Assembly: GCF_000834055.1 (NCBI RefSeq)
Contig: NZ_JXSQ01000017.1
Location: 1-64,000, forward strand
DNA: 64,000 nt
Direction of reading: 5' to 3'
Source of the DNA: Leucobacter komagatae
GTDB taxonomy: Bacteria; Actinomycetota; Actinomycetes; Actinomycetales; Microbacteriaceae
Below the pieces are notes generated by a model. That model did not search any database, was not told the DNA's origin, and saw only the letters and a list, made by a program, of their open reading frames with translations. The position numbers were made by a program, and so were the translations under genes. Every line of letters starts with the position of its first letter. Positions within the stretch are counted from its first letter, which is position 1. This document shows positions 20,009-32,280 of the stretch, in pieces.

Positions 20009-20051
20009 GAGTGAATTCCTCGTTCCGAACTCTTGAGTGAAAGGTTGGCCA

Positions 20052-21433
20052 ATGACGGCCCAAATCATCGCACTACTGTTGTTCGTCGGAGTGTTTGTCC
20101 TCGCACGTTGCGTAAGGTCCACCTCGGCGTCATTATGTTCGCGGCCGCGCGCGCTGTGGGGCTCTGGCTCGCCCAGATGAGCCTGCCCGATGTCATCGCA
20201 GGCTTCCCAGTGTCACTGCTCGTGCTCCTGGTCGGTGTCACATACTTCTTCGGCATAGCCCAGGCAAACGGCACCGTCGACATCATCATCGAGAGGGCGG
20301 TCAACGTCGTCGGTGACCGCGCCGCGTTGCTACCGTTCGCCTTCTTCGTGCTCACCGCGGGAATCAGCGCGATGGGCTCACCACTCGCGGGCCTCGTGAT
20401 GGCCCCCGTTGGCATGCCGCTCGCGAAGAAATACGGGATCGACCGGATGCTGATGGGGCTCGCGATTGGCTCCGGGCTAAGCGCTGGCGCGTTCGCCCCC
20501 ACCAGCCTCTTCGGCATCGTCACCTACGGCACGGCACACTCGGTAAATATTGACCTCAACCCGCTCACCCTCTTTGCGGTCGCAGTCGGAGCGAACCTGC
20601 TGCTACTCCTCGCCGCCTACGTCATGTTCGGCGGCCTCGCCTTGTTTCGCAGACGTGGTCCCGGGCTGCTCCCGGAGAGCCTGCCACAGCTCAGCGTGAC
20701 AAAGCCAGGACCACAGCACCCGTTCGAGCGCGAGGGACACACCGCACAGAGCAGGCACGCGGTCACCTCAGGCATCCAGACACTCGAGGATCCGAGCGTG
20801 AACAAGCCGACCACGGCCCGAATGAACGGGGTGCAGGTTGCAACGGTGATGTGCATGCTCGGCCTCATCGCGAGCGTCATCGTACTGGCCGCGCTCGATC
20901 TCAGCCCCGATATTGGTGTGCTGTGCTTCGCGTTCGGCACCGTGCTCACGCTCATCAACCCCAGCGCTGGCAAGCAGGCCGTCGCAAAGATCGACTGGTC
21001 GACCGTGCTCATGGTCGGCGGCATCATCACGTTCGTCGGCGTACTCGAGCACATGGGCGCCGTTGACCTGCTCGGCGAGGCTGCAAGCAACGTTGGCACG
21101 CCCCTGCTCTCGGCCTTCGTCATCTGCCTCATCGGCGGGCTCATCTCCGCGTTCGCCTCGACGACCGGCATGCTCGCGGCGCTCGTGCCGCTCGCGATCC
21201 CTCTCGTCGCTTCCGGCGACATCGCGGGCTGGGCCGTCATCGCCGCGCTCGGCGTCTGTTCATCCATCGTCGATGTGTCGCCCTTCTCGACGGTCGGCGC
21301 GACGCTCGTCGCAACGGTCGACGAAGACGAGCGGCCCCGCATGAACAGACTCCTCACCCGCTGGGGCCTCTCGATGGTGATCGTCGGGCCAGTACTGCTC
21401 ATCGGCACCCTCGTCCTCCCCACGATGCTCTAA
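20052..21433 (+). pseudogene. MatC-like dicarboxylate (SLC13/CitMHS-type) transporter with a frameshift at codon 18
   Basis: A membrane carrier of the MatC/SLC13-like superfamily. The true start is ATG 20052, with GAAAGG seven bases upstream; it reads MTAQIIALLLFVGVFVLA, then at 20105-20107 the family sequence continues (TLRKVHLGVIMFAAA) only in the next frame. One A appears missing between GCA and ACG. In the start frame a TGA follows after about 40 codons. The rest (to 21433) is intact with some ten or more membrane segments and typical motifs (PVSLLVLLVGVTYFFGIAQ, NGTVD). It is either a recent pseudogene or a sequencing error. An uninterrupted frame from a TTG at 20033 exists but has no ribosome site and an unrelated N-terminus. 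Confidence 0.75.
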
Positions 21434-21460
21434 GCGCACCAACCCGAAACGGATCACGCC

Positions 21461-22702
21461 ATGCTTCCATTGAGTTCTTTCCGCATCATCGACCTCAGCC
21501 GCGCGCTCGCAGGCCCGCTCTGCACCGCACTGCTCGCAGACCTCGGCGCCGACATCATCAAGGTCGAATCAGGCCGCGGCGGCGACCCTGCGCGGGCGTG
21601 GCCACCGTTCGAGGCGGAACACAGCCTCTACTTCGACTCGGTGAACCGCAACAAACGATCCATCGCGCTCGATCTCTACAGCCCAGCTGGGACCGCGATC
21701 CTCGACAGGCTCATCGCGGGGGCCGACGCGCTCGTCGAGAATTTCAAACCAGGCACGCTCGACGCTATGGGATACACGGAGGCGCGGCTCCGACAGCTCA
21801 ACCCGCGCCTTGTCGTCGCATCCGTGACGGGGTACGGCACCACCGGCCCGCTGAGCGACCGCCCCGGCCTGGATCAGGTCATCCAGGCCGTCTCCGGGAT
21901 CACCTCGGTCACGGGCCCAGCCGGTTCGAGCGGCTACCGAGTGGGCCTGCCCATCGTCGATCTCACGAGCGGCATGACTGCGGCAATCGGCCTGCTCGCG
22001 GCACTCCTTGGCCGCGAGCGGCAAGCCACTCCAACCGGGAGCGGCGAGCAGGGCGGAAGTGTCGACAGGGTCGCCACGTCTCTGTACGAGACCGCGCTCA
22101 GCCTCTCGGTATTTCAGGGGCAGGCGGCGCTCACCAACGGCACTATTCCCCAGCCGCAGGGCAACGACCATCCAAGCATCACGCCGTACGGGGTGTTCGA
22201 CACGCTGACCGAGCCGATCGTCGTTGCCGTTACGACCGCGAGCCACTGGCGCAGCTTCTGCACTGCGCTCGGCTCGGAAGAACTGTTCGCCGACCCTCGA
22301 TTCGAGTCGAGCAGGGGCCGAACGGAGCACCGCGAGTCGCTCAACGTGCGAATCACCGAGCTACTCGCAGCGCGTGGTGCGGCCGAGTGGATCGCCGCGC
22401 TCAACGACGTCGGAATCCCCTGCGGCGCGATCCAGGATTACCAGCAGGTCTTGGCGCACCCGCAGACGGCTGCGCTCGGGATGATCCGCGACACCGTTCG
22501 CGGCGACGGCAGCGAGCTCAAGCTTCTCCGCGGGCCGCTCACTCTCGACGGCGAGCCCACTGGCGTGCACCGGCCGCCGCCGGGCTTCGGCGAGCACGGC
22601 GTCGAAGTGCTGCGCGAGCTGGGGCTGGCCGAGTCCGTGGTGACGCAGCTCATCGCCGACGCTGTCCTCGTCGGGGTCCCCGCGACACCGGGCGCGCAAT
22701 GA
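21461..22702 (+). CDS. CaiB/BaiF-family (type III) CoA-transferase
   Basis: A 413-aa family III CoA-transferase, which moves CoA between carboxylic acids through an aspartyl-CoA thioester. The N-terminal signature VIDLSRALAGPLCTALLADLGA-like region is at about 9-30, the KRSIALDL segment at 65-72, and the catalytic Asp lies in LPIVDLTSGM (Asp167). It starts 27 bp after the transporter, and its stop overlaps the crotonase-fold gene as ATGA, so the three form one unit. Activation of the imported acid to its CoA ester is the likely role; the acid is unknown. Confidence 0.88.
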   Translation: MLPLSSFRIIDLSRALAGPLCTALLADLGADIIKVESGRGGDPARAWPPFEAEHSLYFDSVNRNKRSIALDLYSPAGTAILDRLIAGADALVENFKPGTLDAMGYTEARLRQLNPRLVVASVTGYGTTGPLSDRPGLDQVIQAVSGITSVTGPAGSSGYRVGLPIVDLTSGMTAAIGLLAALLGRERQATPTGSGEQGGSVDRVATSLYETALSLSVFQGQAALTNGTIPQPQGNDHPSITPYGVFDTLTEPIVVAVTTASHWRSFCTALGSEELFADPRFESSRGRTEHRESLNVRITELLAARGAAEWIAALNDVGIPCGAIQDYQQVLAHPQTAALGMIRDTVRGDGSELKLLRGPLTLDGEPTGVHRPPPGFGEHGVEVLRELGLAESVVTQLIADAVLVGVPATPGAQ

Positions 22703-23601
22703 TCCCCGTTGGCGCGGCGCGGGAGGCGCTACACACCGCCGCAGGCGCGATCCGCTCGACCGTTGCGGCGGGGATTGGCACCATCTCGATCGACCGCCAG
22801 GCCAAGCGCAATGCACTCACGCCCGAACTGTGTGACGCGCTCGCCGCAACCGTTGCCCGTCTCGATCGCGACCCCGCGGTGCGCGTCATCGCCCTCACGG
22901 GCGCTGGCGCAGATTTCTCAGCCGGGGCCGATATCGCCGAGCTTCCGCGCGTGCTGTTCGACACCGGCGACCAGTCAGCCCGCGACGGGCAGGCTGGCGA
23001 CCCGCCAAGGAGCGGCGCGGGGGTGGACCACCTGACGGCAGCGGACGAAGCGTTCGGCGCGGCCCGCAAACCAACGGTCGCCCTCGTGCGCGGCGTGTGC
23101 ATGGGGGGCGGGTGGCAGCTCGCCTCTGCCTGCGACATCGTGCTCAGCGCAGACGATGCGAGAATCGCCATCACCCCAGCGCTGCTCGGCATTGTCTATC
23201 CGCGGCGCGGCGTCGACAGGCTCGTGCGCACGGTCGGGGTCGACCGAGCGAAGTATCTCCTCTTCAGCGGCGCGCGGGTGTCTCCGGCCGACGCAGAGCG
23301 ATGGGGCCTGGTCACCGCGGTGATTCCCGCCGCCCAGTTCACCCAGGCGGTCGCCGCGCTACTCGAGCGGATCGCGCGGAACTCGCAGTACTCGGTGCAC
23401 GCGACAAAGCGCCTCATCGACGCTGGGGTTCGCGCGCAGGGGCAGCCGGTCGGCGATTCCCGCGCCCCCAGCAAACTCGACGGCGACTGGGAGGCGGTCT
23501 GGTCGGAGATGGCCGGAAACCCCGACCTGCTGGCGGGCCGCGCGGCATTTCTCGCCGGTGACACTCCGGTATTCCCTTGGGAGCCACCCGGTCAGCGGTA
23601 G
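22699..23601 (+). CDS. enoyl-CoA hydratase/isomerase-family protein
   Basis: A 300-aa crotonase-fold protein. The oxyanion-hole segments are present: GADFSAGADIAEL (70-82) and RGVCMGGGWQLASACD (131-146). The region that usually holds the first catalytic Glu reads ITPALLGIVYPRRGVDRLV, without Glu, so a plain hydratase is doubtful; isomerase, decarboxylase or hydrolase chemistry fits as well. It carries an insert around residues 83-112 compared with a compact crotonase. It is translationally coupled to the CoA-transferase and presumably acts on that enzyme's product. Confidence 0.85.
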   Translation: MIPVGAAREALHTAAGAIRSTVAAGIGTISIDRQAKRNALTPELCDALAATVARLDRDPAVRVIALTGAGADFSAGADIAELPRVLFDTGDQSARDGQAGDPPRSGAGVDHLTAADEAFGAARKPTVALVRGVCMGGGWQLASACDIVLSADDARIAITPALLGIVYPRRGVDRLVRTVGVDRAKYLLFSGARVSPADAERWGLVTAVIPAAQFTQAVAALLERIARNSQYSVHATKRLIDAGVRAQGQPVGDSRAPSKLDGDWEAVWSEMAGNPDLLAGRAAFLAGDTPVFPWEPPGQR

Positions 23602-23620: not shown

Positions 23621-24373
23621 TCAGTTGCGCTTTCCGAGGAGCTGCCCGATCCTCCTGGCTGTCTCACGCACGTGGCCGACGAGCGTCTCGGTCGCCGGGA
23701 GGGTTTCGCGGGTCGACACCGATACCGAGCCGAGTGGCTCACTGCCGAGGGCAACCGGCACGGCGAGAGCGGAGACCTGTTCATCGTATTCGCCACGCGT
23801 CACGCAGTAGCCCAGCTCGCGGATGCGCGAGAATTCCGCTTCGAGCGCTTCAGGGTTCATGCTCGTGACAGAGGTGTAGCGCGCGAGAGGTCGCTGGCTT
23901 GTGAAGTACTCACGCATCGCCCGTGGGAGGTGCGCATAGTAGGCCTTCGAGATGGCCCCAACGTGCGCGGGGAACAGCTCCCCCGTTGTCGGGTAACCGC
24001 GCAGCGGCCCTTCCGGCCCGTCGACCGAGATCACGGCGCGCATATGCGCGTGGTCTGCGACGGCGAACGTCGCTGTGAGCCCCGTCTGCTCTGCGAGGCT
24101 GGCGACGACTGGGCGGGTGATGCTCGCGAGCGAGGCGGTGCTCTGCCATGCGCGCGAGAGGTGGAGCACCCCTGGGCCGAGCTTGTAGACGCGGCGCTGG
24201 TCGTCGCGGCGAAGAAACTGCAGTTTGGTGAGGGTGTGGATCGTGCGCTGCGCGCTCGACGTTGAGCATCCGAGCAGCTGGGCGAGTTCGGTCACCCCGA
24301 CCTCGCGCCTGTCTGCGTTGAAGAGCAGGAGCGCTTCGAGCGCGCGCTCAACGCTGTCTAGGGTCTCGGTCAT
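23621..24373 (-). CDS. IclR-family regulator of the OPT/peptidase E unit
   Basis: A 250-aa IclR regulator: winged helix in residues 1-70 (VTELAQLLGCSTSSAQRTIH) and a GAF-like domain (TATFAVADHAHMRAVISVDG; GYCVTRGEYDEQVSALAVPV). I use ATG 24373, because the longer frame adds an unrelated N-terminus. GATAAT ends six bases before this ATG with no ribosome site, so the gene is probably leaderless. A 21-bp palindrome overlaps that -10, a clear autorepression arrangement. It is divergent from the aminotransferase-pepE-DUF1177-OPT operon, its probable second target. Confidence 0.9.
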   Translation of the reverse strand: MTETLDSVERALEALLLFNADRREVGVTELAQLLGCSTSSAQRTIHTLTKLQFLRRDDQRRVYKLGPGVLHLSRAWQSTASLASITRPVVASLAEQTGLTATFAVADHAHMRAVISVDGPEGPLRGYPTTGELFPAHVGAISKAYYAHLPRAMREYFTSQRPLARYTSVTSMNPEALEAEFSRIRELGYCVTRGEYDEQVSALAVPVALGSEPLGSVSVSTRETLPATETLVGHVRETARRIGQLLGKRN

Positions 24374-24380
24374 GCTGTAA

Positions 24381-24401
24381 TTATCCCGCATAGCGGGATA
24401 A
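24381..24401. promoter_or_regulatory. 21-bp palindromic operator, IclR/OPT operon
   Basis: TTATCCCGC-ATA-GCGGGATAA, perfect 9-bp arms. It overlaps the -10 (GATAAT, minus strand, 24380-24385) of the IclR gene and lies just upstream of a possible plus-strand promoter (TTGTTC 24405-24410, 16-bp spacer, TAATTC 24427-24432) of the divergent operon. Confidence 0.78.
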
Positions 24402-24487
24402 GCCTTGTTCGGTTGGCTCGCGTACCTAATTCTGATTGAGCACCTCCTCAGCATCGAGGTGGAATCAGGAAAGAGGCGAATCCAACG

Positions 24488-25690
24488 ATGGACTGGCAGA
24501 CCCACCAGGAAGCGAACCGCGCGGGCACTGAGCTCGGCGGAACCTATCTGTACTTCGACACCGCGGCCGCGGCTCCCCCGGTGATCGCGGCCGTCGAGGC
24601 GGCGAGTGAATACCTCTGGAAGACGACGCGCACGGGTCCATACCTGCCGAGCCTCCGAGCCGAGATCTACGCGCAGCTCGACGAGATCCGCGGCCGGGCC
24701 GCGAGCTTCTTGGGCGCGACGCCAGAGGAACTCGCGTTCACGCGCAACGGCACCGAATCGATCAGCCTCGTCGCACGCGGCCTACGCTTTGAACCAGGCG
24801 ACGAGATCATCGTGCCCGACACCGAGATGCTCTCCAACATCGCCATCTGGCGGATGGTCGCCACAGAATCTGGTGCGACAATCGTCACGGTCGCCGGCGG
24901 CCCAACCGGCCTGCTCGATCCCGAGGCGGTGCGCGCGGCGATCACCGAGCGCACGAAGCTCCTGACGTTCGCGGCGCTCTCGAACGTGACGGGTGCCGTG
25001 CAGCCCGTCGTCGAGCTGTGCGAGGTTGCGGCTGCCGCTGGCGTGCTCGTGCACGTGAATGCCGCGCAGGCCATCGGCATGATGCCTGTCGGGTTCGACG
25101 TCTGGCCGTGCGACTTCATCTCAGCATGCACACGCAAGGGGCTCCGCGCGATCGAAGGCTCTGGCGTGCTCGCCGTGCGCGAGCAGCACCTCGACGCACT
25201 CACGCCAACGCTCGCTGGCTGGTGGAACGCGGGGCTCGGAGACGGTGAAGACGTCACGTTCATGCACGCCGCACGCAAGCTCGAAGCGGGCTCGCCGAAC
25301 GTGCCCGCAATCCTCGCGCTCGGGGCCGCCATCGCGGTAGCCGAGGGGCTTGGGGTCGATGCGATCCACACCCGCGTGCGCGAACTCACGGAATACGCGG
25401 CAACCCGGCTGCGCGAGATCCAAGGCACGCAGATCTACGGGCCGGAGCGCGACGCTGATCGCCTCGGCATCCTGCCGTTCAACATCGACGGCTGCGACCC
25501 CGCGAAGCTCACGCTCGCGCTTGAGCGCCGCGGCATCATCATCGAGGCAGGTCACTTCATGGCGACCCCCATCCTCGCCGCGTACGGCGTCGAGCGGATG
25601 GCCCGCGTGTCGCTCCACTACTTCAACACCATCGACGAAATCGATCAGCTCGTCGCAGCGATCGACGCAGAAAGAGGAATCAACGCATGA
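24488..25690 (+). CDS. class V aminotransferase-fold PLP enzyme
   Basis: A 400-aa fold-type I PLP enzyme of the class V (cysteine desulfurase/selenocysteine lyase/isopenicillin-N epimerase-like) family. FTRNGTESISLVARGL (85-100) forms the PLP phosphate cradle and the Schiff-base Lys is in ACTRKGLRAIEGSGVL (Lys217). The position that is nearly always Asp (VDGAQ motif, contact to the pyridine nitrogen) is Asn191 here (HVNAAQAIG), which would weaken classical transaminase chemistry. It is first in the pepE-DUF1177-OPT operon, its stop overlapping pepE as ATGA. Racemase/epimerase, lyase or desulfurase roles are all possible. Confidence 0.85.
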   Translation: MDWQTHQEANRAGTELGGTYLYFDTAAAAPPVIAAVEAASEYLWKTTRTGPYLPSLRAEIYAQLDEIRGRAASFLGATPEELAFTRNGTESISLVARGLRFEPGDEIIVPDTEMLSNIAIWRMVATESGATIVTVAGGPTGLLDPEAVRAAITERTKLLTFAALSNVTGAVQPVVELCEVAAAAGVLVHVNAAQAIGMMPVGFDVWPCDFISACTRKGLRAIEGSGVLAVREQHLDALTPTLAGWWNAGLGDGEDVTFMHAARKLEAGSPNVPAILALGAAIAVAEGLGVDAIHTRVRELTEYAATRLREIQGTQIYGPERDADRLGILPFNIDGCDPAKLTLALERRGIIIEAGHFMATPILAAYGVERMARVSLHYFNTIDEIDQLVAAIDAERGINA

Positions 25691-26445
25691 CCAACGCACT
25701 TCTCATGAGCAGCTCGCGGATGGGCAGCCTCGGCTACCTGGAGCACGCAGCACCGCAACTGAACACTGTGCTCGAGGGCACGAGCCGCAAGGTGCTCTTC
25801 GTCCCATACGCTGCCGTGTCCTTTTCCTACGACACCTACGAGGATCTCGCGGCCCCGCCGTTCACCGCTGTCGACGCGGAGCTCACCTCGATCCACCGCT
25901 TCGACGACCCCGTCGCCGCAGTGCGCGCCGCTGACGTGATCGCGATCGGCGGCGGCAACAGCTTCGCGCTGCTCAACCGGTTGTACGGCGCCGAGCTTGT
26001 GCGAGAGATCCGCACCCAGGTCACCGAGCGCGGCACCACCTACATCGGGTGGAGCGCTGGTACCAATGTCGCGACGCCAACGATCCGCACCACCAACGAC
26101 ATGCCGATCGTTGAGCCGCCCTCGCTCTCGGCCATCGGTCTCGTGCCGTTCCAGATCAACCCGCACTTCATCTCGGGGAAGCCTGCCGGCCACAACGGTG
26201 AGAGCCGCGAGGAGCGGCTCGCGGAGTTCACCGCGATCAACCCGGGCGAAGAGGTGCTCGCGATCGTCGAGGGCACTGCGCTGCACGTGACAGGGTCGCG
26301 AGGCACCATCCTCAGCAACGCGGCGCTCGACAGCGCGGGCTCGCACTCCGCCGACGGGCTCGTCTTCGCGAACGCCGCCGAGCCGCGCACGATCGCGGCG
26401 GGCGAGAGCTTCGAGCTCTCAGAGATCTCGGGGCCGGTGATCTAA
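25687..26445 (+). CDS. pepE: peptidase E (S51 aspartyl dipeptidase)
   Basis: A 252-aa cytoplasmic serine peptidase of family S51, which in Salmonella cleaves Asp-X dipeptides. The nucleophile lies in GWSAGTN (Ser123), followed by Asp138 (TTNDMPI) and His160 (INPHF); the spacings of 15 and 22 residues equal those of the Salmonella triad Ser120-Asp135-His157. The Gly-rich AIGGGNSFALL segment (86-96) is also typical. Coupling to genes on both sides by overlapping stops and starts and an oligopeptide transporter downstream point to digestion of an imported Asp-containing peptide. Confidence 0.93.
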   Translation: MTNALLMSSSRMGSLGYLEHAAPQLNTVLEGTSRKVLFVPYAAVSFSYDTYEDLAAPPFTAVDAELTSIHRFDDPVAAVRAADVIAIGGGNSFALLNRLYGAELVREIRTQVTERGTTYIGWSAGTNVATPTIRTTNDMPIVEPPSLSAIGLVPFQINPHFISGKPAGHNGESREERLAEFTAINPGEEVLAIVEGTALHVTGSRGTILSNAALDSAGSHSADGLVFANAAEPRTIAAGESFELSEISGPVI

Positions 26446-27389
26446 TGTCGATTCGCGAAATCCTTGAGGTCTCCGACGAGATGGACGATCCGCGCCTCTC
26501 CGGCGAACGGATCGCCGATCTTCTGCGTAGCGCCAACGCACCGGGCTGCGAGATCACCGTCACGAGCGTGCCATACGAGGCGCCGGAAGACCCCAGCCAG
26601 CTGTGCGACTTCGTGAAGGTCGTCATCCCTGGCGAGGCAGGCGGCATCGCGGGCGGCGACGCCCCGACGCTCGGGCTCATCGGCAGGCTCGGCGCGCAGC
26701 AGGCGCAGCCGGAGCGGATCGGCTACGTCTCCGACGCCGACGGCTCGATCGTTGCGATCGCCGCCGCGCTCAGGCTGCTCCGCCTCACCGCGGCAGGCGC
26801 GCGCCTCCGCGGCGACGTCATCATCACGACCCACATCGCGACCCACGTGAGCATCACGCCGCGCGAGCCCGTCGACTTCATGGGCGTGCCCGTCTCCTCC
26901 GAGCGCATGAACGAGTTCGAGGTTGACGAGCGGATGGACGCGATCCTCTCCTTCGACACTTCGAAGGGCAACCGCCTCATCAACCACCGCGGCGTCGCGA
27001 TCTCCCCGACCGCGAAGGCAGGCTACCTCTTGCCCGTCTCCCCCGATCTCGTGACGGTGCTCGAGTACGCGACGGGCGAGCCCGCTCGCACTTTCCCGCT
27101 CGCGCAACAGGACATCACCCCCTACGGCAACGGCTATCGTCACTTCAACTCAATCATGCAGCCAACGATCGCGACCGCCGCCCCCGTCGTCGGGGTCGCC
27201 CTCACAGCGCGCGCCGTTGTTCCGGGGTCGTCGACCGGAGCGAGCTTTGAGGGCCCGCTCCTCGACGCGACGCGCTTCGCAGTCGAGGTGGCGAAGACCT
27301 TCGCGCGCGGTGAGGTCGCGTTCTACGAGACGACTGAACACGCTGCACTCATCGCACAGTACGGCGAATTGACCACTTTCCAGCAATAA
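26445..27389 (+). CDS. DUF1177 family protein
   Basis: A 314-aa soluble protein of DUF1177, a family without known function. No signal peptide or membrane segment is seen. Conserved-looking blocks are DFVKVVIPGEAGGIAGGDA (54-72), GDVIITTHIATHVSITP (123-139) with two His residues, NRLINHRGVAISPTAKAGY, and GSSTGASFEGPLLDATRFAVE. The His/Asp/Glu-rich motifs could bind a metal, but that is speculation. The ATG begins in the last base of the pepE stop (TAATG). From memory, DUF1177 recurs near OPT transporters and peptidases, consistent with this operon. Confidence 0.8.
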   Translation: MSIREILEVSDEMDDPRLSGERIADLLRSANAPGCEITVTSVPYEAPEDPSQLCDFVKVVIPGEAGGIAGGDAPTLGLIGRLGAQQAQPERIGYVSDADGSIVAIAAALRLLRLTAAGARLRGDVIITTHIATHVSITPREPVDFMGVPVSSERMNEFEVDERMDAILSFDTSKGNRLINHRGVAISPTAKAGYLLPVSPDLVTVLEYATGEPARTFPLAQQDITPYGNGYRHFNSIMQPTIATAAPVVGVALTARAVVPGSSTGASFEGPLLDATRFAVEVAKTFARGEVAFYETTEHAALIAQYGELTTFQQ

Positions 27390-27399
27390 CTCCCCTTGC

Positions 27400-27446
27400 T
27401 CTCACCGCGCACGTAGCCAACAGACATGCCTGGTGCGCGGTGAGAG
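27400..27446 (+). other. 14-bp-arm hairpin between DUF1177 and the OPT gene
   Basis: CTCTCACCGCGCAC (27400-27413) is the perfect reverse complement of GTGCGCGGTGAGAG (27433-27446), loop 19 bases, ending 26 bases before the OPT start. There is no T-run. It may act as attenuator, partial terminator or mRNA-stability element setting the transporter's level relative to the enzymes. Confidence 0.7.
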
Positions 27447-27472
27447 AATCCCTCCATGAGAAAAGACAGAAC

Positions 27473-29110
27473 ATGAATTCACCAACCGGTGCGCGGATCG
27501 GCAACGTTGCCGCAGCGCATCCCCGAGCCTTCGAGGTCGGCACCCTCCTCGTCTCCGTACTCCTCAGTCTCCTCGGTGCCGTCATCGGCGTCCACCTGAT
27601 CACCACGCTCGGCATCTCGGCGAACACGAGCGTCATCGGGGCCGTGATTGCGATGCTCATCGGCCGCTTCTCGTTCCTTGGGCTCAGCAAGTTCCGCGAC
27701 CCGCACCGCCAAAACATCATCCAGACCGCGATCTCCACGGCAACATTCGCCGCGGCAAACGGTCTACTTGCGCCGATCGCGATCCCATACGCACTGGGCA
27801 TGCCCGAACTCGTATGGCCCATGCTCATCGGCTGCTCGCTCGGCATCATCATCGACGTCTTCATCCTCTACCGAGCCTTCGGTTCGCGCTTCATGCCCGC
27901 CTCAGCCCCGTGGCCTCCAGGCGTCGCTGCAGCAGAGACCATCCGCGCCGGCGCATCGGGTGGCAAGCGCGCGCTTATCCTGCTCGGCGGGGCGGGAGTG
28001 GGCGTCGTCGGATCACTGTTCTCGCTGCCAATGGCTGCGGGTGGCGTCGCCCTTATCGGAAACTTCTGGGCGCTCCTCATGTTCGGCATCGGGCTGCTTT
28101 TGTCGCAGTACGCACCCGCGCTCTGGAACGTCAACCTCGGCGAGATGTACGTCGCGCACGGCGTGATGATCGGCGCAGGCATCGTTGCACTGCTCCAGGT
28201 CATCTGGCTCATCCTCGGTACGCGCACCAAGAAGGCGAAGCTCACAGAGACAGCGCGCATCCAGGCCGTCGCAGAAGACGAGACGCTGCAGTACACGATC
28301 GACAGTACCAGGCTCGGGAAGTCCCTCGGTCTCGGCTACATCCTGTTCGTTGCCGGGGCGCTACTCATCGCGCTTATTGGTGGTGCGATGAACGACCTCA
28401 CCATGTGGGGACTCATCGGGTTCGTGCTGTTCGCCGGTGTGGCCGCGATCGTGCACGAACTCATCGTCGGCCTCGCCGCGATGCACGCTGGTTGGTTCCC
28501 CGCGTTCGCGGTGACACTCATCTTCCTGATCTTCGGCCTCATGCTGAACATCCCCACCGTTCCGCTCGTCATGCTCGTGGCGTACTGCTCTGCAACCGGC
28601 CCCGCGTTCGCCGACATGGGGTACGACTACAAGACCGGGTGGATCCTCCGTCGAGAGCTCAAGCCGTGGAAGGCTGCCGAACTCATCGGCCGCCGTGAGC
28701 AGCTCAAGGCAGCGATCATCGCGATCGCCGTCGCAATCGGCGTCGTCGCCGTTTCCTGGGAGGGGCTCTTCGCGGACGGCAAGCTTCCCCCGTCGTCGAA
28801 GGTCTTCGCCGACACGATCATGGCAGGCGTGACCGACCCGAAGATCATGCTCACGATGGCGCTGTGGGCAATCCCAGGCGCGCTTATCCAGTTCTTCGGC
28901 GGGTCAAAGCGCCAGATGGGCGTGCTGTTCGCGACGGGGCTGCTCGTCGCAACGCCGAACGCCGGCTGGCTCGTGCTCGTCGCGCTCATCATCCGCATCG
29001 TCTGGACGAAGGTCCGCGGCGAACAGGGCGAGCAGGAGCTGTCGCTCGTCGGCGCGGGTGTCATCGCAGCCGACTCCATCATGAACGTCGGCAAGGTCAT
29101 CAAGTTCTGA
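27473..29110 (+). CDS. OPT/YSL-family oligopeptide transporter
   Basis: A 545-aa polytopic membrane protein of the oligopeptide transporter family, proton-coupled importers of small peptides or metal chelates. About 14 hydrophobic segments are seen; the first is near residues 20-45 (FEVGTLLVSVLLSLLGAVIG). I use ATG 27473 because an upstream GTG in frame lies in a hairpin arm. It ends the operon after DUF1177 (83-bp gap holding the hairpin). Together with peptidase E it suggests uptake and hydrolysis of a small peptide; the substrate is unknown. Confidence 0.9.
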   Translation: MNSPTGARIGNVAAAHPRAFEVGTLLVSVLLSLLGAVIGVHLITTLGISANTSVIGAVIAMLIGRFSFLGLSKFRDPHRQNIIQTAISTATFAAANGLLAPIAIPYALGMPELVWPMLIGCSLGIIIDVFILYRAFGSRFMPASAPWPPGVAAAETIRAGASGGKRALILLGGAGVGVVGSLFSLPMAAGGVALIGNFWALLMFGIGLLLSQYAPALWNVNLGEMYVAHGVMIGAGIVALLQVIWLILGTRTKKAKLTETARIQAVAEDETLQYTIDSTRLGKSLGLGYILFVAGALLIALIGGAMNDLTMWGLIGFVLFAGVAAIVHELIVGLAAMHAGWFPAFAVTLIFLIFGLMLNIPTVPLVMLVAYCSATGPAFADMGYDYKTGWILRRELKPWKAAELIGRREQLKAAIIAIAVAIGVVAVSWEGLFADGKLPPSSKVFADTIMAGVTDPKIMLTMALWAIPGALIQFFGGSKRQMGVLFATGLLVATPNAGWLVLVALIIRIVWTKVRGEQGEQELSLVGAGVIAADSIMNVGKVIKF

Positions 29111-29169
29111 CGCGGTAGGGGCGCACGCCCCGCCAGCACCCGCGCCATCAGCTGCGCGGCTTGCACGTA

Positions 29170-29208
29170 GCGAGGGCCCCGTCACCTGTTGGGTGGCGGG
29201 GCCCTCGC
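29170..29208. terminator. terminator between OPT and actP genes
   Basis: GCGAGGGCCCCGTCACC (29170-29186) pairs with GGTGGCGGGGCCCTCGC (29192-29208), 17 bp with one G-T, loop TGTTG, followed by GTTTG. It sits between convergent OPT and actP genes and can serve both. Confidence 0.85.
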
Positions 29209-29263
29209 GTTTGGGGGAACGGCGGTTCAGGTTTGGTTTCTGACTGAACCGCTCGCCGCGCGC

Positions 29264-30907
29264 TCAGTGCTTCACGGGTGGCTCAGCACCGTAACCGGTC
29301 AGCTCGCGCACCTCCATCTCGGCTGCGAGCTTCTTCGACTCGACTGTCTTGTCGGTGACCGAGAACAGCCAGGCGAGGAAGAAGCCAACCGGGATCGAGA
29401 TGATGCCCGGGTTGGACAGCGGGAAGATCGCAAAGTCGACGTTTTCGCCAAACATCGAGTTTGGCGATCCCGAGACAACGGGCGAGAGCGCGATGAGACC
29501 TACAGCCGTCACGAGGCCGCCGATCATCGACGCTACCGCGCCGCGCGTCGTAAACCGCTTCCAGAACAACGAGAAGAGGATTGTTGGCAGGTTCGCCGAC
29601 GCCGCGACGGCGAAGGCGAGCGCCACGAGGAACGCGACGTTTTGGCCCTGCACCCCGATGCCGCCTGCAATCGCAACGATGCCGATGACCACGGTGGTGT
29701 ACCGCGCAACACGCACCTCCTGTTTCTGGGTCACTCTGCCCTTCTTGATCACGTTCGAGTAGATGTCGTGTGCGAACGCTGCGGAAGCCGTGATGGTGAG
29801 CCCGGCGACGACCGCGAGGATCGTCGCGAACGCGACCGCGGAGATGAAGCCGAGCAGCACAGGCCCGCCGAGCTCTGCTGCGAGCAGTGGCGCCGCGGAG
29901 TTCACCCCGCCTGGTGAGGAGACAATGGTGTCCGGCCCAACGAACGCTGCTGCCCCGTACCCGAGCACGAGCGTGAACAGGTAGAAGATGCCGATCAGCC
30001 AGATCGCCCAGACCACTGACTGCCGCGCTGCCTTTGCCGTCGGTACGGTGTAGAAGCGCATGAGCACGTGTGGCAGCCCCGCGGTTCCCAGTACGAGAGC
30101 TAGCGCGAGGGACACGAAGTCGATCGGGAGCGCACCGTACTGGATTCCGGGTGCGAGGATCGCATCACCGTTCGTGTTCTCCGGGTTCGACACCGCGGCC
30201 TCGAGCACTGCGGCAAAGTTGAAGCCCTTGAGCGCGAGCACCCAGATTGTCATCGCGCCGGCGCCGAGGATGAGCAGCGCTGCCTTGATGATCTGCACCC
30301 AGGTGGTCCCCTTCATTCCGCCAATGAGCACGTAGAGGATCATGACGAGCCCGACGATGGCGACAACGAGCGACTGGCCAAGGCTCGTGTCGACGCCGAG
30401 GAGCAGCGAGACGAGCCCGCCGGCTCCCGCCATCTGAGCGAGCAGGTAGAAGAACGTGACGGCAAGCGTCGTGAGCGATGCCGCCATGCGAACGGGGCGC
30501 TCCTTCAACCGGAACGACAGCACGTCGGCCATCGTGAACTTCGCCGTGTTGCGCATGAGCTCGGCGACGAGGAGCAGTGCGACGAGCCACGCAACCAGGA
30601 ACCCGATCGAGTAGAGGAACCCGTCGTACCCGTTCACGGCGATGGCGCCGCAAATACCGAGGAACGAGGCCGCCGAAAGATAGTCACCTGCGATCGCGAG
30701 CCCGTTTTGTCTGCCGGTAAAGGAGCGGCCGCCCGCATAGAAGTCGGCGGCCGTTCGCGTGTTGCGGCTTGCGCGGATCACAATGACCATGGTCACGGCG
30801 ACGAACGCAAGGAATATTGAGATGTTGAGGATCGGGTTTTGATCCGCAGCATCGACAGCCTTCACTATCCCGTTCGCCGCCAGACTTGGCAACTCAGCTG
30901 CGCTCAT
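29264..30907 (-). CDS. actP: cation/acetate symporter, copy 1
   Basis: A 547-aa sodium:solute symporter (SSS family) of the ActP acetate/monocarboxylate permease type, with about 13 membrane helices. The N-terminal core RTAADFYAGGRSFTGRQNGL (about 52-71) and IAGDYLSAASFLGICGA are characteristic. It is nearly the same along its length as the second copy at 32361-33980, including the terminal GYGAEPPV(K/N)H. Its start overlaps the DUF485 stop as ATGA, the standard yjcH-actP arrangement. Acetate is the family substrate; propionate or other short acids are possible. Confidence 0.93.
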   Translation of the reverse strand: MSAAELPSLAANGIVKAVDAADQNPILNISIFLAFVAVTMVIVIRASRNTRTAADFYAGGRSFTGRQNGLAIAGDYLSAASFLGICGAIAVNGYDGFLYSIGFLVAWLVALLLVAELMRNTAKFTMADVLSFRLKERPVRMAASLTTLAVTFFYLLAQMAGAGGLVSLLLGVDTSLGQSLVVAIVGLVMILYVLIGGMKGTTWVQIIKAALLILGAGAMTIWVLALKGFNFAAVLEAAVSNPENTNGDAILAPGIQYGALPIDFVSLALALVLGTAGLPHVLMRFYTVPTAKAARQSVVWAIWLIGIFYLFTLVLGYGAAAFVGPDTIVSSPGGVNSAAPLLAAELGGPVLLGFISAVAFATILAVVAGLTITASAAFAHDIYSNVIKKGRVTQKQEVRVARYTTVVIGIVAIAGGIGVQGQNVAFLVALAFAVAASANLPTILFSLFWKRFTTRGAVASMIGGLVTAVGLIALSPVVSGSPNSMFGENVDFAIFPLSNPGIISIPVGFFLAWLFSVTDKTVESKKLAAEMEVRELTGYGAEPPVKH

Positions 30908-31272
30908 GATGTGCCTCCTTCGGCCCTAGGGACCATAGTTTCCAGCTCGGCGCGCAGGGACTCAGCAATCGGGTCAATCCGACGGTTGGTGTACATGACG
31001 TAGGCGGTGGTGATTGCGAATGTGGTGACAAACTGCGATAGCCCAAACCAAATCCCGACGTTCATGCCGAGCAGTGGCCTCGCCATAAAATCGTGCGCAA
31101 AGGCGCCGAGAACCACGAACAATAAAAACCAGGCGAGAAAGGCCGCGGCGAGCGGAAATACGAACCGCCGCAGCCGTCGCTTCAATTCACGGAATTCCGG
31201 CCTGGCTTGGAATTCCACGTAGTCGATGGAAGGGGAAATACCTTCCACCGCTTCGGATGCTGCATCGGACAT
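30904..31272 (-). CDS. DUF485 membrane protein (YjcH-like), copy 1
   Basis: A 122-aa DUF485 protein with two membrane helices (about 42-64 and 78-97) and charged ends, the usual small partner encoded before actP-type permeases. I use the ATG at 31272, with AGGAGG six bases upstream, instead of a much longer in-frame reading that crosses the divergent promoter. The stop overlaps the actP ATG. It is probably an accessory subunit or assembly factor for the permease; that is inference. Confidence 0.9.
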   Translation of the reverse strand: MSDAASEAVEGISPSIDYVEFQARPEFRELKRRLRRFVFPLAAAFLAWFLLFVVLGAFAHDFMARPLLGMNVGIWFGLSQFVTTFAITTAYVMYTNRRIDPIAESLRAELETMVPRAEGGTS

Positions 31273-31403
31273 TTGGGCCTCCTTGCCCTGCCTCGAGATT
31301 TCAAGGCTCGCCAACGAGAGCTGCAACCCGGCTCTCCACGAACCTTGAGAACCGCAACTGTGCGGTCTGGCTCCGATGCTAGAAACCGTGGTATGCATGT
31401 AGT

Positions 31404-31418
31404 ACCCCCAAAAGTTGG
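31404..31418. promoter_or_regulatory. RamA-like box upstream of ramA-like copy 1
   Basis: ACCCCCAAAAGTTGG, nearly the same as ACCCCCGAAAGTTGG at 36569-36583 before the second copy. The AC4-5 run followed by A/G/T matches the RamA-box pattern known in Corynebacterium glutamicum. It ends about 10 bases before the start codon and overlaps the ribosome site. Confidence 0.6.
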
Positions 31419-31428
31419 GAAGCCGGTG

Positions 31429-32280
31429 ATGTCTTCTGCAATTGACCCGAGACAGCGGCTCCTTCAAGAAGCCGTGACCGAGTTTTCGCGTGCGACGGGG
31501 TTCCCAGTCACCTTTGGAGGCTATGCATCCGAGGGCGTAACCGCTGTGACTGCGATGAGCGGCGCCCATGGAGAAGGCCTGCTGCGCCTTCGCGTCGCGA
31601 ACAGCCGTGGCCTCGGTGGCAGGGCCATGGTCGAGCACCGCCCGCGCTTCACAAGGGACTACATGGCCTCGCGCAACATTAGCCACGACTACGACGCGGA
31701 AATCGGGAGCGAGAGCATCGTGATGCTCGTCGCGGTCCCCGTCGTCGTCAATGACGAAACGCGGGCAGTGCTCTACGGGGGAACGCGCGGCGGCTTCTCC
31801 CCAGACGGCACCTTCATGCGCGCGGCAGCCGCCGTGCGGCGCGACCTCGTGCGTGAGATCCTTGCGGCCGACGAAGGCGACCTCCTCGGGGAACGCTCCC
31901 AGCAGCTCGATACCGAGCTCCACCCCTCAGTTCTCCCCGGCCCCGTCCTCGAGGAGTTGCGCAGCAGCCACGCCGAGGTGCGGCGCATCGCGGCAGAAAC
32001 CACTGACCCAGTCGCACGCGCACGACTCGCTGCGCTCGAAGCCCGCCTCGCCGGAATCGGCCACGATCCGCTCCCCCAGGTAGACGTGCACCTCACCGCA
32101 CGCGAGGTCGACGTGCTCAGCCAAGCCGCAATCGGGGCGACGAACGCCGAGATCGGAGCCACGTTCGGCATCGCTGAGAGCACGGTGAAGAGCTACCTGA
32201 AGACCGCAATGGGAAAGCTCGAGTCGTCGACCCGCCATGCGGCAGTCGCAGCTGCGCGCGGGCGTGGCCTCATTCCCTAG
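31429..32280 (+). CDS. RamA-like LuxR-family regulator, copy 1
   Basis: A 283-aa regulator of RamA size (RamA of C. glutamicum is 282 aa), the activator of acetate genes there. The N-terminal GAF-like domain includes RLRVANSRGLGGRAMVEHRP and SIVMLVAVPVVVNDETRAVL. A coiled linker follows, then the LuxR helix-turn-helix (LTAREVDVLS...NAEIGATFGIAESTVKSYLK, about 220-267). ATG 31429 has GGGAAG six bases upstream. It is divergent from DUF485-actP copy 1, its likely target. The C-terminus is almost the same as that of copy 2 (36592-37464). Confidence 0.88.
   Translation: MSSAIDPRQRLLQEAVTEFSRATGFPVTFGGYASEGVTAVTAMSGAHGEGLLRLRVANSRGLGGRAMVEHRPRFTRDYMASRNISHDYDAEIGSESIVMLVAVPVVVNDETRAVLYGGTRGGFSPDGTFMRAAAAVRRDLVREILAADEGDLLGERSQQLDTELHPSVLPGPVLEELRSSHAEVRRIAAETTDPVARARLAALEARLAGIGHDPLPQVDVHLTAREVDVLSQAAIGATNAEIGATFGIAESTVKSYLKTAMGKLESSTRHAAVAAARGRGLIP

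Follow-up and report, generated by a model that had tools for sequence, protein, structure and literature searches.

A DUF1177-containing operon of Leucobacter komagatae as a rare variant of a widespread peptide module

Gene content and conservation of the operon

The window analysed here is a stretch of 64,000 nt from Leucobacter komagatae (contig NZ_JXSQ01000017.1, assembly GCF_000834055.1, positions 1–64,000, forward strand). It carries a predicted operon of four genes, encoding a pyridoxal phosphate (PLP)-dependent class V enzyme, the S51-family dipeptidase PepE, a protein of the DUF1177 family and an OPT-family transporter, together with a divergent gene for an IclR-family regulator (Table 1). 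An original prediction from the sequence had placed these five genes here, and each scores above the cut-off of its own Pfam family. The overlapping stops and starts that it described are likewise present, as ATGA at 25687-25690 between the PLP and PepE genes and as TAATG at 26443-26447 between the PepE and DUF1177 genes, and the gap that follows the DUF1177 gene is structured according to its predicted fold. The catalytic triad of PepE is complete, as had been claimed, with S123, H160 and E195 identified by alignment to Salmonella PepE; its nearest solved relative is 1fy2.

The operon is real and conserved; it represents a rare form of a peptide module that is widespread but unstudied. The same gene set recurs in two loci of the same genus (L013 and L015) and in Corynebacterium kalidii (L016), all three found by DUF1177 searches, and in a member of another family of the same order (L108). 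In L015 the PLP and DUF1177 genes are each split across two frames, as are the DUF1177 and OPT genes of locus L014; these splits reflect either decay or sequencing errors.

Table 1. Features of the operon and its control region in the window
Feature	Positions	Strand	Evidence
IclR-family regulator gene	23621..24373	-	Pfam IclR_C 89.8 bits, HTH_IclR 45.3 bits, both above cut-off
Perfect palindrome TTATCCCGCATAGCGGGATAA, proposed IclR operator	24381..24401		Pattern search of window; conservation
Conserved TTG...AATTCT element, possible operon promoter	24405..24432	+	Intergenic alignment (window, L013, L015)
PLP-dependent class V enzyme, aminotransferase fold, without the desulfurase cysteine	24488..25690	+	Pfam Aminotran_5 271.9 bits
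Dipeptidase PepE, peptidase family S51	25687..26445	+	NCBIfam PepE 290.1 bits (cut-off 156)
DUF1177 protein, predicted M28/M42-type fold	26445..27389	+	Pfam PF06675 355.7 bits (cut-off 25); model fold comparison
Intercistronic hairpin, DUF1177–OPT gap	27399..27446	+	Predicted fold
OPT-family transporter gene	27473..29110	+	Pfam OPT (PF03169) 64.9 bits (cut-off 25.8); start backed by relatives
Strong hairpin 3′ of OPT, possible transcript end	29170..29208	+	Fold of 29108-29230; no T run after hairpin

The DUF1177 module and its overlap with oxidase clusters

When one genome per species was searched, at least 577 DUF1177 coding places were found. Neighbourhoods were counted for the best 80 of these, which are not an even sample; one locus without a DUF1177 match (L060) was left out (n = 79), and absences may be overcounted because several contigs end near the DUF1177 gene. 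Within 6 kb of DUF1177, the commonest partners are AroM (60 loci), OPT (47), IclR (36), Asp/Glu racemase (29), S51 (24), ABC ATPase (24), M29 (20), DUF917 (20), PucR (18) and M20 (13); hydantoinase A (6), a cytosine-type permease (5) and the PLP enzyme (1) are scarcer, and S9, S66 or M24 peptidases occur at some loci too. AroM or an Asp/Glu racemase is usual rather than universal (64 of 79 loci). The window operon shares with this common module a peptide importer (OPT), a peptidase (S51) and an IclR regulator, and has no AroM or Asp/Glu racemase gene within 6 kb. Elsewhere in the same genome, a second DUF1177 gene (L010, 8658-9602) belongs to an operon that also encodes an Opp-type ABC importer, SBP5, an M20 peptidase and AroM.

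The original prediction had made its pathway depend on the recurrence of OPT and pepE beside DUF1177 and the PLP enzyme in other genomes. Such recurrence was found, both in the OPT and S51 counts above and in the eight distinct loci of the PLP subfamily (the window, L013, L015, L016, L108, L113, L117 and L118), all of which adjoin OPT, DUF1177 or both. Since this co-occurrence held up, a module for peptide uptake and breakdown is well supported and is regarded as highly probable.

DUF1177 hosts include Pseudomonadota, Bacillota, Actinomycetota, Acidobacteriota and a Bathyarchaeote, and the family also occurs on a haloarchaeal plasmid. The module moves between bacteria, as a six-gene cassette (IclR-OPT-DUF1177-AroM-PepE-racemase; L119, 4559-9966) lies amid transposase genes on a conjugative Klebsiella plasmid.

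A similar set of genes has been described around cyclodipeptide oxidases (CDOs). According to PMC11055893, 88% of CDO-containing operons lie outside cyclodipeptide synthase (CDPS) clusters; hydantoin-racemase-like genes, DUF917, AroM and importers are over-represented in such operons, many of which also contain peptidases, and hydantoin- or allantoin-like substrates, or unknown metabolites, are proposed for them there. The term DUF1177 is absent from the main text of that article. Among 50 DUF1177 genomes, chosen from the 80 mostly by omitting short contigs and close relatives among the enterobacteria, CDO subunit B (PF19585) occurs in one, within the DUF1177 cluster and beside two nitroreductases. 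The reverse search of 299 Bacilli genomes returned five subunit B loci, one of them in that same genome, and all five lie among module genes: AroM and M29 in four each, OPT in three and DUF1177 in two, one contig being only 4.6 kb long. DUF1177-module and oxidase clusters thus overlap strongly in Bacilli, and this overlap makes cyclic or dehydrogenated dipeptides plausible substrates of the module. At L128 (1-9955), L129 (10125-14959) and L131, cyclodipeptide-oxidase-like genes (a nitroreductase plus DUF6092) share one cluster with module genes; M29 is present in all three, AroM, a racemase and PucR in L128 and L129, OPT in L128 and L131, and DUF1177 in L128.

The PLP enzyme, the DUF1177 protein and the control region

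By sequence, the nearest solved relatives of the PLP enzyme are cysteine desulfurases. It resembles the SufS type in fold class, in the PLP-binding lysine K217, kept in 10/10 aligned sequences, and in R373. Unlike SufS, the subfamily has Met in place of the catalytic Cys (6/6 aligned members), EML in place of the EHH motif (5/6) and Asn in place of the pyridine-binding Asp (4/6), and the residue before the PLP lysine is Arg rather than His (6/6). The enzyme scores 256.4 bits against an NCBIfam SufS cut-off of 475.1, and the loss of the cysteine rules out a cysteine desulfurase. The Asp-to-Asn change is not a mark of the subfamily, the Asp being kept in L108 and L109. Two further matches of the genome searches (L114 and L115) keep the cysteine, are SufS-like and were not counted as members.

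The subfamily is rare. Besides the window, it was found in one of 396 genomes of the order, in one of 149 genomes around G149 and, as the one already known member only, among 251 genomes around G150 and 299 genomes of the order of G891; 396 genomes of the phylum held no further member save the two SufS-like matches. Each genome contributed only a limited number of scored candidates to these searches (four, for instance), and further loci may exist; L117 was found via locus L032 and not via the search thresholds. In Bacillota, the partners of the PLP gene are OPT and an M24 peptidase in L113 and L117, and DUF1177, an M24 fragment and hydantoinases A and B in L118, a locus also present in a second Planococcus record. 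The pathway of the original prediction is partly supported, but with one occurrence in 79 DUF1177 loci the PLP enzyme is an uncommon extra and not a core member.

That DUF1177 has no assigned reaction, as originally stated, agrees with the literature search, which found no function for it, most subscription journals lying outside its coverage; PF06675 gave no full-text match, and the full-text match for the term DUF1177 was an article on DUF1996 (PMC4738358). The family is nevertheless not without clues, because its structural model has a zinc-peptidase fold of the M28/M42 type. In the structure comparison, for which the 1000 highest Foldseek-ranked chains were re-aligned, the best matches are two-metal aminopeptidases, and no glutaminyl cyclase was seen among the 50 entries listed. 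At the sequence level, a single-sequence search gave no PDB match, and the family profile gave four chance-level PDB matches, the best to an RNase P protein (E 0.11) and two to glutamate racemases (E 0.53 and 0.55). A comparison of 62 members with Pfam (E ≤5) gave only DUF1177 itself and stray matches (lowest E 0.043), none of the 11 families listed being a peptidase family, and profile comparison with the M20, M29, S51, DUF917, AroM and racemase clusters gave probabilities <1 in each case.

Four residues, D97, H130, D171 and H233, are invariant in all 62 members. When mapped onto the M28 metal site by the order of structural elements rather than by superposition, candidate sites 2 to 5 would be filled, the first site would be Arg (R81) and the catalytic Glu was not found. 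DUF1177 is probably a metalloenzyme that acts on an amide bond. The DUF1177 protein of the window operon sits on a separate long branch of the family tree; loss of H140 does not mark this whole clade, as L108 keeps the residue.

The IclR protein contains HTH_IclR and IclR_C domains, reaches no named NCBIfam subfamily cut-off and is 83% (L013), 78% (L015) and 62% (L016) identical to its counterparts. The palindrome TTATCCCGCATAGCGGGATAA is its own sole match in the window at up to three mismatches, compared with a mean of 0.01 and a maximum of 1 in 100 shuffles. It is kept at 20/21 positions in L013, 20/21 in L015 and 16/21 in L016, whereas much of the sequence between the two genes has diverged, and L108 has no clear copy. 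The original prediction had set a perfect palindrome over the −10 of the IclR gene itself. The palindrome is indeed perfect, but its position at a −10 was not borne out, as a sigma-70 consensus scan of 24330-24520 detected no promoter-like site on either strand, the TTG...AATTCT element included. Since the palindrome, just upstream of the IclR start, directly precedes this element, which is conserved in three operons, its placement would fit activation of the operon combined with IclR autorepression at least as well as simple repression.

The OPT gene more probably starts at ATG 27473 than at GTG 27440, because the L013 and L015 proteins align from residue 1 of that reading and GTG 27440 falls in the 3′ arm of the predicted gap hairpin. 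With this start the gap spans 83 bases, and an 89-base stretch folds at -31.7 kcal/mol. Predicted hairpins occupy the same place in L013 and L015 with different letters, which points to a possible role in tuning OPT expression; the hairpin is absent in L108, where the gap is about 14 bases. Downstream (29264-32280) lie genes for an MctC-type monocarboxylate transporter (859.5 bits, cut-off 670) and a RamA-like regulator that misses its own cut-off, both of which also follow the operon in L013 and L015. On the other side (20033-23601) there is probably a separate operon for carboxylate use. Its plus-strand genes encode a carboxylate carrier of the MatC/CitMHS type, a CoA-transferase of family III and an enoyl-CoA hydratase, and an IclR-type gene lies upstream of them, on the opposite strand.

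Proposed pathway, alternatives and related systems

The best explanation of the whole, held tentatively and at somewhat less than even confidence, is an IclR-controlled operon that scavenges a small peptide. OPT, which has no PDB match by sequence, would import a dipeptide that is modified or cyclic and probably contains an aspartyl residue. In DUF1177, a single metal ion would be bound by D97, H130 and H233, close to D171, and the enzyme would open the peptide or transform it in some other way; PepE, expected from its family to cleave Asp-X dipeptides, would then act on the product. The PLP enzyme would act on the amino group or on the stereochemistry of a product, standing in for the AroM and Asp/Glu racemases found in the common module, and IclR, sensing the peptide or a product, would set its own transcription and that of the operon from the palindrome. 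The import, cleavage and PLP-dependent processing first proposed thus stand in outline, as an uptake and breakdown module, while the chemistry and the individual steps draw on family knowledge. That the substrate is cyclic is a minority expectation.

Replacement of a racemase by the PLP enzyme is the simplest reading of the fact that AroM and racemases occur in 0/6 PLP-bearing DUF1177 loci, compared with 64/78 other loci (Fisher p 9.5e-5, or 0.038 with the PLP loci counted as two lineages, related loci not being independent). The DUF1177 tree requires two separate PLP associations. Several points weigh against the proposed scheme: the replacement rests on these two lineages, 14/78 other DUF1177 loci also do without both racemases, and C. 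kalidii, which carries an operon of the window type, has no CDO subunit B. The replacement is put forward as possible but less likely than not.

The closest rival is plain scavenging of linear Asp-X or D-Asp dipeptides, in which, after import by OPT, the dipeptides are cleaved by PepE and by DUF1177 as a two-metal aminopeptidase and the freed amino acid is transaminated or racemised by the PLP enzyme, without any cyclic substrate. It draws on the family activity of PepE, on the varied linear-peptide peptidases among DUF1177 neighbours (M20, M24, M29, S9 and S66) and on the best fold matches of DUF1177, the two-metal aminopeptidases, of which 6esl and 1amp bind two zincs (PMC7522609). However, in the putative mapping DUF1177 lacks both the first metal His and the catalytic Glu, an extra conserved enzyme next to PepE would be redundant for plain dipeptides, and the overlap with oxidase-like and hydantoinase genes suggests modified substrates; the rival is judged unlikely, if still worth serious consideration. 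A second alternative, suggested for similar clusters in PMC11055893, is that the module acts on hydantoin- or allantoin-like rings of nucleobase-related metabolism and not on peptides. The DUF917, hydantoinase A, cytosine-type permease and PucR genes near DUF1177 (20, 6, 5 and 18 of 79 neighbourhoods) would fit such a role, as would the hydantoinases adjoining the PLP enzyme in L118, but none of these genes occurs in the window operon or its four counterparts, and OPT, Opp-type importers and peptidases are commoner near DUF1177, so that this alternative appears improbable. Synthesis rather than degradation of a peptide-derived secondary metabolite is very improbable: unknown secondary metabolites are listed as a possible role of similar clusters in PMC11055893, but importers, dipeptidases and IclR/PucR regulators predominate, and no assembly enzyme is among the annotated genes of the plasmid-borne cassette.

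Within the peptide-scavenging scheme, a bolder version would have DUF1177, as a new single-metal class of the M28 fold, open cyclic dipeptides or related cyclic amides, with a PLP-dependent epimerase, the PLP enzyme, in place of the cofactor-free racemases of the common module; this combination is speculative and considered rather improbable. New here are the predicted fold of DUF1177, its candidate metal site and the overlap of its module with oxidase clusters. A family for which one collection holds at least 577 coding places thereby acquires a fold prediction, a putative active site and a genomic context that points consistently to peptide uptake and overlaps oxidase-like clusters whose substrates are left open in PMC11055893. 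Enzymes hydrolysing cyclic dipeptides were still unclear in 2013 according to PMC3852281, and DUF1177 is a concrete candidate for this activity. The window operon offers a compact version of the module, with four genes and one regulator and without the usual racemases.

Among known systems, M28 metallopeptidases share with DUF1177 the fold of its model and, in the putative mapping, filled metal sites 2 to 5. As in GPAA1, a single-zinc M28 relative, site 1 would not be a metal ligand, unlike in glutaminyl cyclases, which keep all five sites though binding one zinc (PMC7522609). DUF1177 differs from M28 enzymes in having no sequence match to them and, as mapped, a His instead of Glu/Asp at site 3 and no catalytic Glu. 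The DUF1177 module resembles the CDO-like clusters without CDPS (PMC11055893) in its racemase-type genes, DUF917, AroM, OPT or ABC importers and peptidases, while the window operon differs from those clusters in having the PLP enzyme and PepE, with no nitroreductase or DUF6092 among its ten scanned proteins. Compared with the IclR-OPT-DUF1177-AroM-PepE-racemase cassette (for example in L018, L058, L059 and the plasmid locus L119), the window operon has the same OPT, S51, DUF1177 and IclR components, but it carries the PLP enzyme instead of AroM and the racemase, and its IclR gene is divergent.
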